This document shows, in pieces, positions 30,915 through 35,538 of a DNA stretch of 45,453 nucleotides. The notes beneath the pieces were generated by a model that was not told the DNA's origin, searched no databases, and saw nothing but the letters and a program-made list of their open reading frames with translations. The stretch is taken from positions 1-45,453 of the forward strand of contig JANJTM010000049.1 of assembly GCA_024711125.1 (NCBI GenBank). The letters run 5' to 3'. The stretch's first letter is position 1. Every line of letters starts with the position of its first letter. The translations under genes were made by a program, and so were the position numbers. Source of the DNA: Rhodothermales bacterium. GTDB taxonomy: Bacteria; Bacteroidota; Rhodothermia; Rhodothermales; UBA10348.

Positions 30915-32426
30915 ATGCCCCGTCCGCTCAAGGCCTCCGCCGTCTTCGGCCTGCTGATGCGCCAGCAGGTCCGCCGACTGAGCCGCGCCGCCCGAAGTCC
31001 GGGGCAGCGGCTGGTCACGGTCATCATGGGACTGTTCGCCGTGTACATGGGCTTCACGCTGGTGGTCTCGGCGTTGTATTTCCCGGTTTTCGCCCGCCAG
31101 ATGGCCGCGGGTGTCGATCCGGTGGAGCTCGTCAACCGGCACGCGCTGCCCGTGCTGTTCGGGCTGTTCGCGATGCGGTTCCTCTTCCAGAAGACCCCCA
31201 AGGTGCAGTTGCAGCCGTATCTGCACCTTCCGATCCCGCGGACACAACTGGTCACCTTCTTCGCGGCGGCGAGCGTCGTATCGGCCCACAACCTGTTTCC
31301 GCTGCTCTTCGTGGTACCGTTCGCACTCGCGCAGCTCGCGCCCGAATTCTCCCAGCGGGCGGCCTGGAGCTGGATCCTCGGGGCCTTCGCCCTGCTGCTT
31401 GCGTCCAATTTCGCCAACCTGTACCTGCGCACGCTCCTCCACCGCCGGGAGCGGGTCTTCCTGAGCATACTCGGTGGTTTCGCGCTGGTCGGACTGGCCG
31501 ACGAGTATACGGGGGCCCACCTCCTGCGCGCCGTCTCGTCGGGGCTTTTCACCTCGCTGTTGCGTGGAGATCCGGTCACGCTGCTCGCGTTCGGGGTCTT
31601 CGTGGCGTCGACCGCCGTGCTCGCCGGGGCCGCGCTGCTCGAATCCATCCGCACCCAATCCACCGAGAACGCCCCACCCCGTCGTGCGGGCCGCCTGCAC
31701 GAACTGGCCGAGCGATGGGACGTCTCGGGCCACCTCGTGTGGCTGGAGCTGCGCCTGATGTGGCGGAATCGCCGTCCCCGGCACTACCTCCTGGTGTCGA
31801 TGCTCTTTTCGACGGTCTACCTCGTATTCCTGCTTGCCAGCCCGCGAGCGTTCGGCGGCTTCGTATTCGCCGCCATGATGGGACTTTTCGCGTCGGGCGG
31901 GTTCGTCCTGAACTACGGCCAGCTGATGTTCGGATGGGACTCCGGCTACTGGGACGGACTCATCGGGCGGAACATCCGTACGCGCGTCATGGCCCGGAGC
32001 AAGGTGATCGTACTGCAGGCTTCGTGCCTGGTGCTCTTCTTCGTCAGTCTGCCCCTGTTCCTCTGGCTGCGACCCGAACTGGTCCCGCTGCACGTCGCCT
32101 TCCTTTTCTACAACGCGGGCGTCACCTCGCAGATCGTGATGGAGCTCGCCGTACGCAACCGCGACCGCGTGGACCTGGCTCGCACGGGCGGATTCTTCAA
32201 CTACGAGGGCTTTTCGGCACGCCACTGGCTCTGGTTCATCCCCACCGCACTTCCACCCACGCTGCTCATCGTGGCCCTTCGCGACCGGCCCGACCTGGCC
32301 TGGAGCGCCCTGGCCATCGCCGGCCTGGCGGGACTCGCGGTGACCGAGGCATGGGTCCAGCGGCACGCCACGCTGCTCGATCGCTCCAAGTACCGGATGG
32401 CGGCGGGTTTCCGCCGGGACGCATGA
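30915..32426 (+). CDS. ABC transporter permease, DUF5687-like
   Basis: The 503-residue integral membrane protein has roughly ten to twelve hydrophobic helices. An N-terminal segment (ASAVFGLLMRQQVRRLSRAA) precedes the first helix and a long cytoplasmic loop with ELAERWDVSGHLVWLELRLM lies near the middle. It resembles the large permeases of the DUF5687 type that Bacteroidota encode next to a single ABC ATPase. The stop overlaps the ATPase start (ATGA), confirming the pairing. The substrate is unknown; such exporters have been suggested to move peptides or lipids, but nothing here decides this. It is the third gene of the racemase-rnr-permease-ATPase operon. Confidence 0.85.
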   Translation: MPRPLKASAVFGLLMRQQVRRLSRAARSPGQRLVTVIMGLFAVYMGFTLVVSALYFPVFARQMAAGVDPVELVNRHALPVLFGLFAMRFLFQKTPKVQLQPYLHLPIPRTQLVTFFAAASVVSAHNLFPLLFVVPFALAQLAPEFSQRAAWSWILGAFALLLASNFANLYLRTLLHRRERVFLSILGGFALVGLADEYTGAHLLRAVSSGLFTSLLRGDPVTLLAFGVFVASTAVLAGAALLESIRTQSTENAPPRRAGRLHELAERWDVSGHLVWLELRLMWRNRRPRHYLLVSMLFSTVYLVFLLASPRAFGGFVFAAMMGLFASGGFVLNYGQLMFGWDSGYWDGLIGRNIRTRVMARSKVIVLQASCLVLFFVSLPLFLWLRPELVPLHVAFLFYNAGVTSQIVMELAVRNRDRVDLARTGGFFNYEGFSARHWLWFIPTALPPTLLIVALRDRPDLAWSALAIAGLAGLAVTEAWVQRHATLLDRSKYRMAAGFRRDA

Positions 32427-33112
32427 TCGAAATCGAGCAGCTCAGCAAGGCCTACGGGTCGCGCACCGTGCTCCAGGTACCGTCATGGAGGGCCGGCGCG
32501 GGCGAGGTGATCGGACTCGTCGGCTCCAACGGCGCGGGAAAGACCACCTTTCTCAGGCTCCTCCTCGATCTCATCGAGGCAGACACCGGACTGGTGCGCA
32601 TCGGAGGTCACGAGGTGGCGCGGTCCGATGCGTGGAAGGCCTTCACCGGGGCGTACCTGGATGAGCGCTTCCTCATCGGATACCTGACGACCGACGAGTT
32701 CCTCGATTTCATCCGCACCGTATACGGACTGTCGAGGGACGAGGCCGAGCCACTGATCGCCCCGTTCCATCCCTTCCTGCCCGAGGACCGCTCCGGACGC
32801 TATCTCGGCGAACTGTCCACGGGAAACGCGAAGAAGGTCGGTATCACCGCGGCCATGTTCTTCGGGCCGCGGCTCCTGGTGCTCGACGAGCCCTTCGCGA
32901 ATCTGGATCCGCCGTCGAATATCCGGCTGAAGCAGCTGCTCAGGGACCTGCACGCGCGCACCGGGGCCACGATGCTCATATCGAGCCACGATCTCGTGCA
33001 CGTCACCGAGCTCTGCGGCCGCATCACGCTCATCGACCGGGGCCGCATCGTCAAGGACACGGCCACGTCGCACGCGACGCTCGAGGAACTGGAAGCCTAC
33101 TTCTCGGCCTGA
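32423..33112 (+). CDS. ABC transporter ATP-binding protein
   Basis: The 229-residue ATPase energises the overlapping permease. Walker A is GLVGSNGAGKTTFLRLL (about residues 31-47), the Q-loop lies near GAYLDERFLIGYLTTDEFL, the signature is LSTGNAKKVGI (a variant of LSGGQ with TGN), Walker B is RLLVLDEPFANLD, and the H-loop is ISSHDLVHV. The glutamine of the usual Q-loop is not obvious, and the signature lacks the second glycine, both acceptable variants in exporters of this kind. The 3' end overlaps the convergent ferrochelatase-like gene by 16 bases. Confidence 0.93.
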   Translation: MIEIEQLSKAYGSRTVLQVPSWRAGAGEVIGLVGSNGAGKTTFLRLLLDLIEADTGLVRIGGHEVARSDAWKAFTGAYLDERFLIGYLTTDEFLDFIRTVYGLSRDEAEPLIAPFHPFLPEDRSGRYLGELSTGNAKKVGITAAMFFGPRLLVLDEPFANLDPPSNIRLKQLLRDLHARTGATMLISSHDLVHVTELCGRITLIDRGRIVKDTATSHATLEELEAYFSA

Positions 33113-34359
33113 ACCGACGTCGGACGCGGCGCCAGGGTGTGCATCGGCGCCGAACGCCGGCAGTGCCGACATACGGCCATGGAGTCGCCCGAAGCCTCCC
33201 ACGCCGCACGAGGGCAGACCGTCGAGCCGGGCGCCGGGCCGGCGGCCAGCCGCGTGCCGTCCACCGCGACGCGGGAGCGAACGAGCCGGGCCAGGCCCTC
33301 GATCAGCAGCGGGTGGCAGTTCAACGGCGCGGCGACCTCGTACCGGGCGATTCCGGCCGAATCGGCGACGCTTCGCATGGCCACGTCGAGCCGGAACGCG
33401 ATGTCGAGCTGCTCGGTCACCGTCGACACGGGCAACAGCAGCAGGTCGCGGGCTCCCTCGTCGCCGACCCGGGACAGGACGTCCTCGAGCGAATCGCGCC
33501 CCGGATCGGCAACGCCGGGGGCGCGCTGGAAGGCTACCTCGAACGGGCGGTCGAACCCGCGGAGACGCATTACCGCGTCGACGGTGCGATGCACCTGGCA
33601 GCAGTAGGGCCGATCCTGCCTGCGATCGTCGGCGGGTGCCCCGGCCTGGGCCACGAACACGAATCGGACGCCGTTCCGGCGATCCCGCGGAAAGCGCTGC
33701 AGGGTCTCTTCTATCCGCTCGTGGAAGGCCCGCACGAGAAGGGGATCCTCCGCGTAGTCCCGGATCGCCGAAACCGCGACGGTGCGACGCGCGCGGGTCG
33801 CGACGGCTTCCCAGTAGAGAAGAGACGAACCCGTGCGTGCCGACGAGAATTGCGGAAATATGGGTACGAGCACGGCGTGGTCGATGCCGTCGTCGGCCAG
33901 GCGCTCGAGGGCCTCCTCGGTGGAAGGCTGGCCGTAACGCATGGCCGGGTAGACCCGCCATGCGACCGGGTCGTCGGTCCGGGCCAGCGTGGTTTGCAGG
34001 GAGCGCACCTGCTCGAGGGCGTGCCTCACGACCGGTGCGCGCCCGCCGACCGCCTCGTATTCGTGCTCCAGCGCGGTGCCTCGCATCACCGAAACGGCGC
34101 GGCTCGTCAGGTGCCGCATCCAGCCGGAGCCGGGGAGCGCTTCCCCGGCGGGATCCATCAGCAGCCGGTAGAGATACGGCCGGATCTCCGCACGGCCCTG
34201 CGGTCCTCCGGGCCCAAGCAGCACGACGCCGACCCGGCTGCCGGGAGCCACGTCGTGGACCCCCTCGGAAGCGAGGGCCGACGCCGCGTCGCGGCGGTGC
34301 ATGAGCCGTAGATATTCTCGGGGAGTCACGGGGGGAGCGGCGAGGACGGACCCGGGCAT
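33097..34359 (-). CDS. Ferrochelatase-family protein with altered active-site residues
   Basis: The 420-residue protein aligns along its length with ferrochelatase (GVVLLGPGGPQGRAEIRPYL at about 44-63, VPIFPQFSSARTGSSL, PFEVAFQR, LLLLPVSTVTEQLDIAFRLD). Key residues differ. The metal-inserting histidine of the S-A-H-x-L-P motif is replaced by Q238 in FVFVAQAGAP. In the S-D-H-x-E motif the histidine and glutamate are Q317 and D319 (TEQLD). The P-W-L-G-P loop is absent. Cysteines C348, C382, C397 and C400 near the C-terminus recall the [2Fe-2S] site of some ferrochelatases. It may be a non-catalytic or changed-function homologue. An ATG at 34302 would remove 19 residues; the family match begins only at about residue 42, so both starts are possible. 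Confidence 0.8.
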   Translation of the reverse strand: MPGSVLAAPPVTPREYLRLMHRRDAASALASEGVHDVAPGSRVGVVLLGPGGPQGRAEIRPYLYRLLMDPAGEALPGSGWMRHLTSRAVSVMRGTALEHEYEAVGGRAPVVRHALEQVRSLQTTLARTDDPVAWRVYPAMRYGQPSTEEALERLADDGIDHAVLVPIFPQFSSARTGSSLLYWEAVATRARRTVAVSAIRDYAEDPLLVRAFHERIEETLQRFPRDRRNGVRFVFVAQAGAPADDRRQDRPYCCQVHRTVDAVMRLRGFDRPFEVAFQRAPGVADPGRDSLEDVLSRVGDEGARDLLLLPVSTVTEQLDIAFRLDVAMRSVADSAGIARYEVAAPLNCHPLLIEGLARLVRSRVAVDGTRLAAGPAPGSTVCPRAAWEASGDSMAVCRHCRRSAPMHTLAPRPTSVQAEK

Positions 34360-34498: not shown

Positions 34499-35188
34499 TC
34501 AGGCGGCCATCCATTCCAGCGCCGCACGGCGCAGGTCGGCAGGCCACGTGACCGGAGGCGGTGCCGAAAATGCCTGGCGCTCCCCGCGCGTCGGGTGGTC
34601 GACCGCCATCCGGGCGCAATGAAGGGCAAGATTGCGCCCGTCCAGCTCGGTGCGGGAGCCGTAGCGGAAATCGCCCAGCAGCGGGTGCCCCCGGTGGGCA
34701 AACTGGATGCGCACCTGGTGGGAGCGCCCGGTTTCGAGCCGGATGGCGACCAGCGTGAGCTCGCCGGCCTCCGAAACGCGGCTCCAGCGCAGCACGGCCT
34801 CGCGGGCTCCCTGGGCGCCGGGTCTCGCGACCCGAACCGTTTCGTCGTCCTTGGTAAGCCAGTCGGTCCACGTCGCGGCGTCGCCCGGCGCACCTTCGAC
34901 GATCGCCAGGTACTGCTTCTCCACGGTGCGGCGGCGCACCTGGTCCGAGAGCCGCGCGGCCGCCTTGGACGTGCGCGCCAGCACCATCACCCCGGAAACC
35001 GGCCGGTCCAGCCGGTGGACAAGGCCCAGGAAGACGTTTCCGGGCTTGTCGAACGCGCGTTTCAGATAGTCCTTGCCCCAGGAAAGCACGTCCATGTCCC
35101 CTGTCCGGTCGGCCTGGGACAGCAGCCCCGCAGGCTTCGACACCACCAGCAGGTGGTTGTCGAGGTACAGTACGTCCGGAGCGGTCAC
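34499..35188 (-). CDS. RluA-family 23S rRNA/tRNA pseudouridine synthase
   Basis: The 229-residue enzyme isomerises uridine to pseudouridine in RNA. It has the catalytic aspartate in LVHRLDRPVSGVMVLARTSK (about residues 60-79), the N-terminal VLYLDNHLLVVSKPAGLLSQ, and the C-terminal LETGRSHQVRIQFAHRGHPL with GDFRYGS. It lacks the S4 domain found in RluC/RluD, so it is a short RluA-like form and its target position is unknown. The GTG at 35188 overlaps the stop of the YjbR gene by four bases (GTGA), giving a coupled pair. Confidence 0.93.
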   Translation of the reverse strand: MTAPDVLYLDNHLLVVSKPAGLLSQADRTGDMDVLSWGKDYLKRAFDKPGNVFLGLVHRLDRPVSGVMVLARTSKAAARLSDQVRRRTVEKQYLAIVEGAPGDAATWTDWLTKDDETVRVARPGAQGAREAVLRWSRVSEAGELTLVAIRLETGRSHQVRIQFAHRGHPLLGDFRYGSRTELDGRNLALHCARMAVDHPTRGERQAFSAPPPVTWPADLRRAALEWMAA

Positions 35189-35538
35189 GCGCCGGCCTCC
35201 GGCCGCCTGGTCCGCGGAAGGGACGCCACGACCAGGTCGTACGAGTGATCGACGAGTTCCCGCACCAGGCTCGCGGGAACGTCCGAATCGAGCTTCACGC
35301 TGTTCCAGTGCGTCTTGCTCATGTGCCACCCGGGCAGGATGCCCTCGTACTCGGCGCGCAGCGCCACGGCCCGCTCCGGATCGCATTTCAGATTCACCAC
35401 GGGCTCCGGGGCATCCAGGCCGACGAGGGCGAACATCTTTCCGCCCACCTTGAACACGAGGGTCGACTCGTCGAACGGAAAGGTCTCCTCGGCGCCGGGT
35501 TTGGCGATGCAGCAGGTGGTGAGACTCTCCAGGGTCAT
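35185..35538 (-). CDS. MmcQ/YjbR family protein
   Basis: The 117-residue protein belongs to the YjbR (DUF419) family with a CyaY-like fold proposed to bind DNA. Recognisable segments are TCCIAKPGAEETFPFDESTL, FKVGGKMFALVGLD, VNLKCDPERAVALRAEYEG and ILPGWHMSKTHWNSVKLDSD. Its biological role is not established. It is the first gene of a two-gene unit with the pseudouridine synthase, joined by a GTGA overlap. Confidence 0.9.
   Translation of the reverse strand: MTLESLTTCCIAKPGAEETFPFDESTLVFKVGGKMFALVGLDAPEPVVNLKCDPERAVALRAEYEGILPGWHMSKTHWNSVKLDSDVPASLVRELVDHSYDLVVASLPRTRRPEAGA

Follow-up and report, generated by a model that had tools for sequence, protein, structure and literature searches.

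The window analyzed here is a 45,453-nucleotide stretch (positions 1 to 45,453 of contig JANJTM010000049.1) from a Rhodothermales bacterium. On its minus strand lies hemH2 (33097..34359, stop codon included), an open frame of 420 codons with an ATG start, which encodes a 420-aa ferrochelatase-fold protein whose catalytic histidine and glutamate are replaced. Two genes on the same strand lie upstream of it: an RluA-type pseudouridine synthase (34499..35188; Pfam PF00849, 108.9 bits), which is a recurrent neighbour of hemH2 and its relatives, and a YjbR-family protein (35185..35538; PF04237, 115.9 bits), which is the first gene of the run. On the plus strand, an ABC transporter ATPase (32423..33112; PF00005, 68.7 bits) converges on hemH2 and overlaps it by 16 bases at the gene ends, and is preceded by a DUF5687 membrane protein (30915..32426, also on the plus strand; PF18940, 302.9 bits), its probable partner. 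The presence of this pair (30915-33112) beside hemH2 is conserved in the window's family. The membrane protein belongs to neighbour cluster c2, found in 17 loci, and the ATPase to cluster c5, the neighbours having been called with a crude codon-composition heuristic that missed the window's own RluA gene.

The original prediction recognized a ferrochelatase pattern in this frame, which both profile and structural comparisons confirm. The hemH2 product scores 208.1 bits (E-value 2.1e-61) against the Pfam Ferrochelatase profile (PF00762) over residues 43-363, where the cut-off is 27, a score that rules out a chance match or a wrong reading frame. It also passes the cut-off of NCBIfam TIGR00109 (hemH; 162.7 bits against 124.6), so that annotation pipelines would name it ferrochelatase. 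Assignment to CbiX (sirohydrochlorin or cobalt chelatase) was rejected, as that profile gave 18.8 bits, below its cut-off of 22. All 38 matches with an E-value of 1 or less in a sequence search of the PDB are ferrochelatases. An AlphaFold2 model, built from an alignment of 37 rows, has a mean pLDDT of 85.5 and a pTM of 0.86, with residues 405-420 and a few others below a pLDDT of 50. Human ferrochelatase entries are the top Foldseek matches of this model in the PDB, and VIA-align superposes it on human ferrochelatase (1hrk) with a Z of 37.8 and an rmsd of 2.3 over 325 residues, the ferrochelatase fold covering residues 39-374. The structures of two human variants, 2hre (E343K, with protoporphyrin bound; Z 37.6) and 4kla (E343D; Z 37.0), tie with 1hrk, and the fold of hemH2 is therefore uninformative on activity.

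The active site is where hemH2 departs from the enzyme. In alignments to human ferrochelatase (FECH) and 133 other ferrochelatase rows, Gln238 (codon CAG, 33646..33648, minus strand) occupies the column of the catalytic histidine (human H263). The surrounding motif, expected as S-A-H, reads V236-A237-Q238; the absence of the catalytic histidine thus stands, although the predicted reading A-Q-A should be V-A-Q. The S-D-H-x-E motif reads T-E-Q-L-D at residues 315-319 (33403..33417, minus strand), as had been proposed, so that the human D340, H341, and E343 columns hold Glu316, Gln317, and Asp319. Further columns of the network are also altered: Trp310 is replaced by Pro286 (in a column with tryptophan in 54 of 54 canonical rows), Asn75 by Gly49, and Glu347 by Arg323, whereas Gln302 is kept as Gln278 (the human numbers of Trp310, Gln302, and Glu347 were counted along the sequence from E343). 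With CAG as the codon of Gln238, and with changes in adjacent residues as well, the loss of the histidine is not accounted for by one sequencing error, and a one-base artefact was ruled out. For the human enzyme, according to PMC9133952, all of the H263 variants studied are inactive, E343K lacks activity and carries protoporphyrin through purification, and E343D slows a step that follows chelation.

An iron-sulphur cluster on the C-terminal cysteines had also been suggested, and the individual residues named for it and for the active site (Q238, Q317, D319, C348, C382, C397, and C400) were all given correctly. C348, in an L-N-C-H context (33316..33318, minus strand), is present in 17 of 17 rows from the window's family and in 18 of 54 canonical rows. 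The C-terminal stretch (33160..33216, minus strand) has the spacing C382-x14-C397-x2-C400, and its CxxC is found in 16 of the 17 same-family rows. On the other hand, the published C-terminal [2Fe-2S] motif of ferrochelatases, CX(1,11)CX(1,11)C (PMC8529089), is found in the C-terminus of none of these 17 rows, compared with 42 of 54 canonical rows. A cluster with different spacing is possible. C253 and C254 (P-Y-C-C; 33598..33603, minus strand) are additional candidate metal or cluster ligands, conserved in 15 and 16 of the 17 same-family rows, respectively.

The source genome (3.79 Mb, 99.3% complete) has two ferrochelatase genes, and hemH2 as the organism's only ferrochelatase is ruled out. 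The second is a canonical hemH on contig C6 (348.6 bits), which retains SAHGTP and SDHVE and adjoins hemE; HemB and HemY are encoded on the same contig. The canonical gene and other haem genes that the original prediction proposed to look for are thus present, and its own genome can complete haem synthesis without hemH2. Compared with HemH/FECH (EC 4.98.1.1), hemH2 shares the fold, the Pfam and TIGR00109 scores, and C-terminal cysteines, but it has replaced the catalytic histidine, the glutamate, and most of the network, and is dispensable for haem synthesis in its genome.

A search of genome contigs with the single hemH2 protein sequence found no relative, whereas an alignment-based search did, and the named loci place the paralogue group of hemH2 in Rhodothermales. 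All 114 genomes of this order in the dataset were searched for ferrochelatase and HemB. From 113 genome stretches and the window, 134 ferrochelatase rows were aligned; the counts given here use 133 (leaving out the second fragment of L060 from G003), the tree uses 132 (leaving out that fragment and one from G012), and alignment A2 left out L120 and L140. In L060 and L140, the relative is split in two frames, which may reflect either a sequencing error or a broken gene. The histidine, the glutamate, or both are missing from 47 of the 133 rows (20 without the histidine, 39 without the glutamate), and 27 of these 47 degenerate rows retain the histidine. On the tree, the histidine state changes at least 10 times (7 of them forced by the starred branches) and the glutamate state 6 times. 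All trees were built in quick mode with SH-aLRT as the sole support measure, and long branches are flagged in them, that of the window gene included. In the 132-row tree, hemH2 falls in a set of 34 paralogue rows (SH-aLRT 96), with 20 rows lacking the glutamate, 12 lacking the histidine, and 2 intact; most members of this group lie downstream of an RluA-type pseudouridine synthase gene.

The original prediction held that orthologues with the usual histidine and glutamate would speak against a changed function, and the two residues give different answers. Among the 17 same-family rows, window included, the histidine is kept in 14; the glutamate is kept in none and is an aspartate in all 17. The scaffold columns stay in these rows, while Phe337 has become histidine in 13 of the 17 and Asn75 valine in 15. 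The window's own gene matches 77 of 120 columns conserved among its family relatives and lies on a long branch (1.6). Of 25 derived states of the paralogues, 9 are found in hemH2; in another 9 columns it retains the canonical residue, and in the remaining 7 it has neither. By synteny and its EQxD signature, hemH2 is a member of the paralogue group, but an early-branching or fast one, and in view of these differences its function may have diverged from that of its relatives. Two other forms were observed in the order. A third hemH type, with an FGEP start and HEQSE replacing SDHxE but with the histidine and glutamate kept, occurs at L032, L033, L035, and L036 (G019, G010, G015, and G009) and at L034 (G045). 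It shares a contig with HemB, HemE, and HemY in four genomes of the window's family, and may represent a haem operon that was gained separately after the lineage had lost haem synthesis. In family f4 (L054, L056, and L058), the sole ferrochelatase is a long-branch form with phenylalanine at the histidine column and the glutamate kept; these three genomes are at least 99% complete, have no HemB or HemE, and show no RluA in the stretch examined.

In 33 of the 47 degenerate rows, including that of the window, an RluA gene lies upstream of the ferrochelatase gene and has the same orientation. An intact hemH occupies the RluA locus in at least 9 of 86 intact rows (the flanks often being about 1.4 kb). 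RluA and hemH are separated by hemF in Salinibacter and in family f14, and the copy at this locus is still intact in f14 and two other genomes. These intact copies suggest an ancestral RluA-hemF-hemH arrangement in which the ferrochelatase copy later decayed. HemF was found in 46 genomes, all of them outside the window's family, and in none within it. The second ferrochelatase of Salinibacter (e.g., L122 of Salinibacter altiplanensis) resembles hemH2 in its RluA-linked locus, but differs in that the RluA-linked copies keep the histidine and mostly have asparagine in place of the glutamate. This combination is seen at L122, L066, L200, L199, and L202. In a survey of ferrochelatases, both S. ruber copies were assumed to be functional because they have the histidine (PMC8529089); the glutamate-to-asparagine change is invisible to a check on the histidine alone.

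In genomes without HemB, the degenerate copy is often the one that is kept. Among genomes that are at least 90% complete, an intact ferrochelatase accompanies HemB in 61 of 61, and 20 of these carry a degenerate copy as well. Of 17 without HemB, 13 have a degenerate copy only, 3 have none, and 1 (G047, which has HemE) has an intact ferrochelatase. Fisher's test on these genomes gives 1e-15, a value that ignores kinship. Across all 114 genomes, an intact ferrochelatase is present in 74 of those with HemB and missing from 3 (each less than 90% complete). Of those without HemB, 4 have an intact ferrochelatase and 33 do not, these 33 comprising 22 with a degenerate copy and 11 with none. Absence of HemB was called from a profile search in which 17 of the 37 HemB-negative genomes were assigned as the remainder of the genome list, 8 of these 17 also lacking HemB in a separate search. 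HemE, for which 60 genomes were searched, is absent from 12 of the 13 genomes that have only a degenerate copy and gives a weak match in the other. Within the window's family, the paralogue is kept in 13 of 15 HemB-negative genomes (at least 84% complete) and in 4 of 9 HemB-positive ones (p = 0.06), and full HemY matches occur in 9 of 27 genomes, the same 9 as HemB. The haem-copper oxidase COX1 is present in 26 of these 27, and a search of 33 genomes for a CtaA-like protein gave matches in 30, many of them weak or partial. The HemB-negative members of the family therefore seem to use haem that they do not make. Haem auxotrophy is reported to be common among uncultured bacteria (PMC11139205). 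The three genomes without any ferrochelatase indicate that the protein is not strictly required. In another family, G034 (97% complete) has at L026 an otherwise canonical hemH adjoining HemF in which SAH has become SAQ; it has neither HemB nor HemE, while a genus mate has SAH, HemB, and HemE, and G034 is possibly a recent haem auxotroph. An orphan salvage HemH is marked by the absence of early haem genes, a situation seen in 22 relatives' genomes, in which HemB is missing and a degenerate copy is present. The window's genome, with its HemB, HemE, HemY, and canonical hemH, makes haem, and the argument from auxotrophy thus applies to the relatives of hemH2.

These relatives are under constraint. 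Pairs of degenerate copies give dN/dS values of 0.056-0.377 in 24 of 30 cases, with no value in the other 6 because of saturated dS and several others near saturation. Canonical pairs from Rhodothermus and Salinibacter give 0.018-0.070, and a pair of intact hemH genes in family f9 gives 0.23. The relatives are thus constrained, some less so than the enzyme. Of the two marks of a pseudoenzyme, loss of residues is seen in hemH2 itself and constraint among its relatives.

Several known systems offer points of comparison. The pseudoferrochelatase of Caenorhabditis elegans is likewise a ferrochelatase-like protein without the catalytic histidine (PMC9133952); however, it belongs to an animal without the pathway, whereas hemH2 is part of a group of bacterial paralogues in which residues were lost repeatedly and which occurs both in haem makers and in HemB-negative genomes. 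The survey cited above set aside 14 sequences without the histidine as dysfunctional, of which 11 were duplicates in organisms that also had a functional copy (PMC8529089). In contrast, the degenerate copy in Rhodothermales is often the sole one, occurs in HemB-negative genomes, and is under constraint. The orphan HemH proteins of Lactococcus lactis and Porphyromonas gingivalis are also late-pathway genes kept after the early ones have gone, but they are reported to be active (PMC4696147; PMC13227078), while the Rhodothermales copies lack catalytic residues. FetB of P. gingivalis (PDB 9b86) has a class II chelatase fold, a PDB title that mentions a haem group, and a Z of 17.0 to the hemH2 model over 237 residues, but it is closer in size to CbiK-like chelatases and 12% identical; a single search found no literature on this structure. 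Literature searches also returned nothing joining Rhodothermales with heme auxotrophy, nothing on ferrochelatase-like paralogues in heme biosynthesis beyond a software paper, and, among the matches listed, nothing with a ferrochelatase and pseudouridine synthase operon as its subject.

Taken together, these data point, with a probability of about 0.5, to hemH2 as a pseudo-ferrochelatase that has been retained because it does something other than catalysis, probably the binding, delivery, or sensing of haem or porphyrin. This is the best explanation because the fold has been kept, the proton-abstracting residues have been dropped repeatedly, and genomes unable to feed the reaction keep the protein. 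The changed function put forward originally is well supported, both by the canonical hemH, HemB, HemE, and HemY of the window's genome and by the persistence of relatives without HemB. We infer the haem-related role, as we do any C-terminal cluster. The gene would have arisen from the second hemH locus of Rhodothermales (RluA-hemF-hemH in lineages with an intact copy), shed the residues that abstract protons (His263, His341, and Glu343 of the human enzyme), and been kept for a purpose other than iron insertion. Most likely, the old cleft would bind haem or porphyrin in order to hold, deliver, or report it; for instance, haem arriving from outside could be handed to enzymes that use it, such as those that assemble cytochrome oxidase. 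The putative job could equally well be delivery, storage, or sensing, and a tetrapyrrole or metal sensor, as first proposed, is a possible role.

The main rival to a non-catalytic job is residual chelation in the relatives that keep the histidine. With histidine and aspartate, they might slowly insert iron into imported porphyrin or remove it from imported haem, as an altered chelatase or de-chelatase (HmuS being another, unrelated de-chelatase; PMC12583661). With the histidine still present in 27 of the 47, some degenerate copies may still chelate, and both the human E343D variant, affected mainly after chelation (PMC9133952), and the orphan HemH of P. gingivalis, reported to be functional (PMC13227078), and of L. 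lactis, which charges protoporphyrin with iron in a haem auxotroph (PMC4696147), lend this some weight. The window protein itself, however, lacks the histidine, as do 20 of the 47 degenerate rows, with at least 10 changes of this residue on the tree; the W310, N75, H341, and E347 columns are replaced as well, and an intact hemH is at hand in the same genome, all of which leaves an altered chelatase with a minority chance.

That hemH2 is a slowly decaying relic with no function is unlikely. Its long branch, the split frame of L060, and degenerate dN/dS values (0.06-0.38) that mostly exceed the 0.02-0.07 of canonical pairs in Rhodothermus and Salinibacter would fit such decay, but none of the 24 pairs with a value comes anywhere near a dN/dS of 1, and the intact f9 pair falls in the same range. 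Moreover, the frame of hemH2 is open over 420 codons with a confidently modelled fold, and a degenerate copy is the sole ferrochelatase in 13 of the 17 HemB-negative genomes that are at least 90% complete. Similarly unlikely is a function of hemH2 with the RluA-type pseudouridine synthase, as its haem- or iron-responsive partner in RNA modification. The recurrence of RluA upstream of the degenerate copies speaks for it, as does PMC9133952, in which a nuclear pool of human ferrochelatase is reported to be active in rRNA synthesis and a regulatory role for non-catalytic ferrochelatases is posed as a question. Yet an intact hemH sits at the RluA locus in some lineages, so that the linkage may be merely inherited, and family f4 keeps the protein with no RluA in the stretch examined.

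A non-catalytic role for hemH2 would matter for annotation as well as for biology. Transfer of the TIGR00109 name would label a probably inactive protein ferrochelatase, and a HemB-negative genome could then appear to retain the last step of haem synthesis. The graded bacterial series at one locus, from intact copies to those without the histidine, offers a testbed for the regulatory-role question of PMC9133952. More tentatively, with the odds against it, ferrochelatase may have had an old second, non-catalytic job of holding, handing on, or reporting haem, which the Rhodothermales duplicate took over and which became worth more once haem was imported. Lineages that dropped haem synthesis would then have kept the dead copy and lost the live one, and the adjacent RluA might link RNA modification to the availability of haem.
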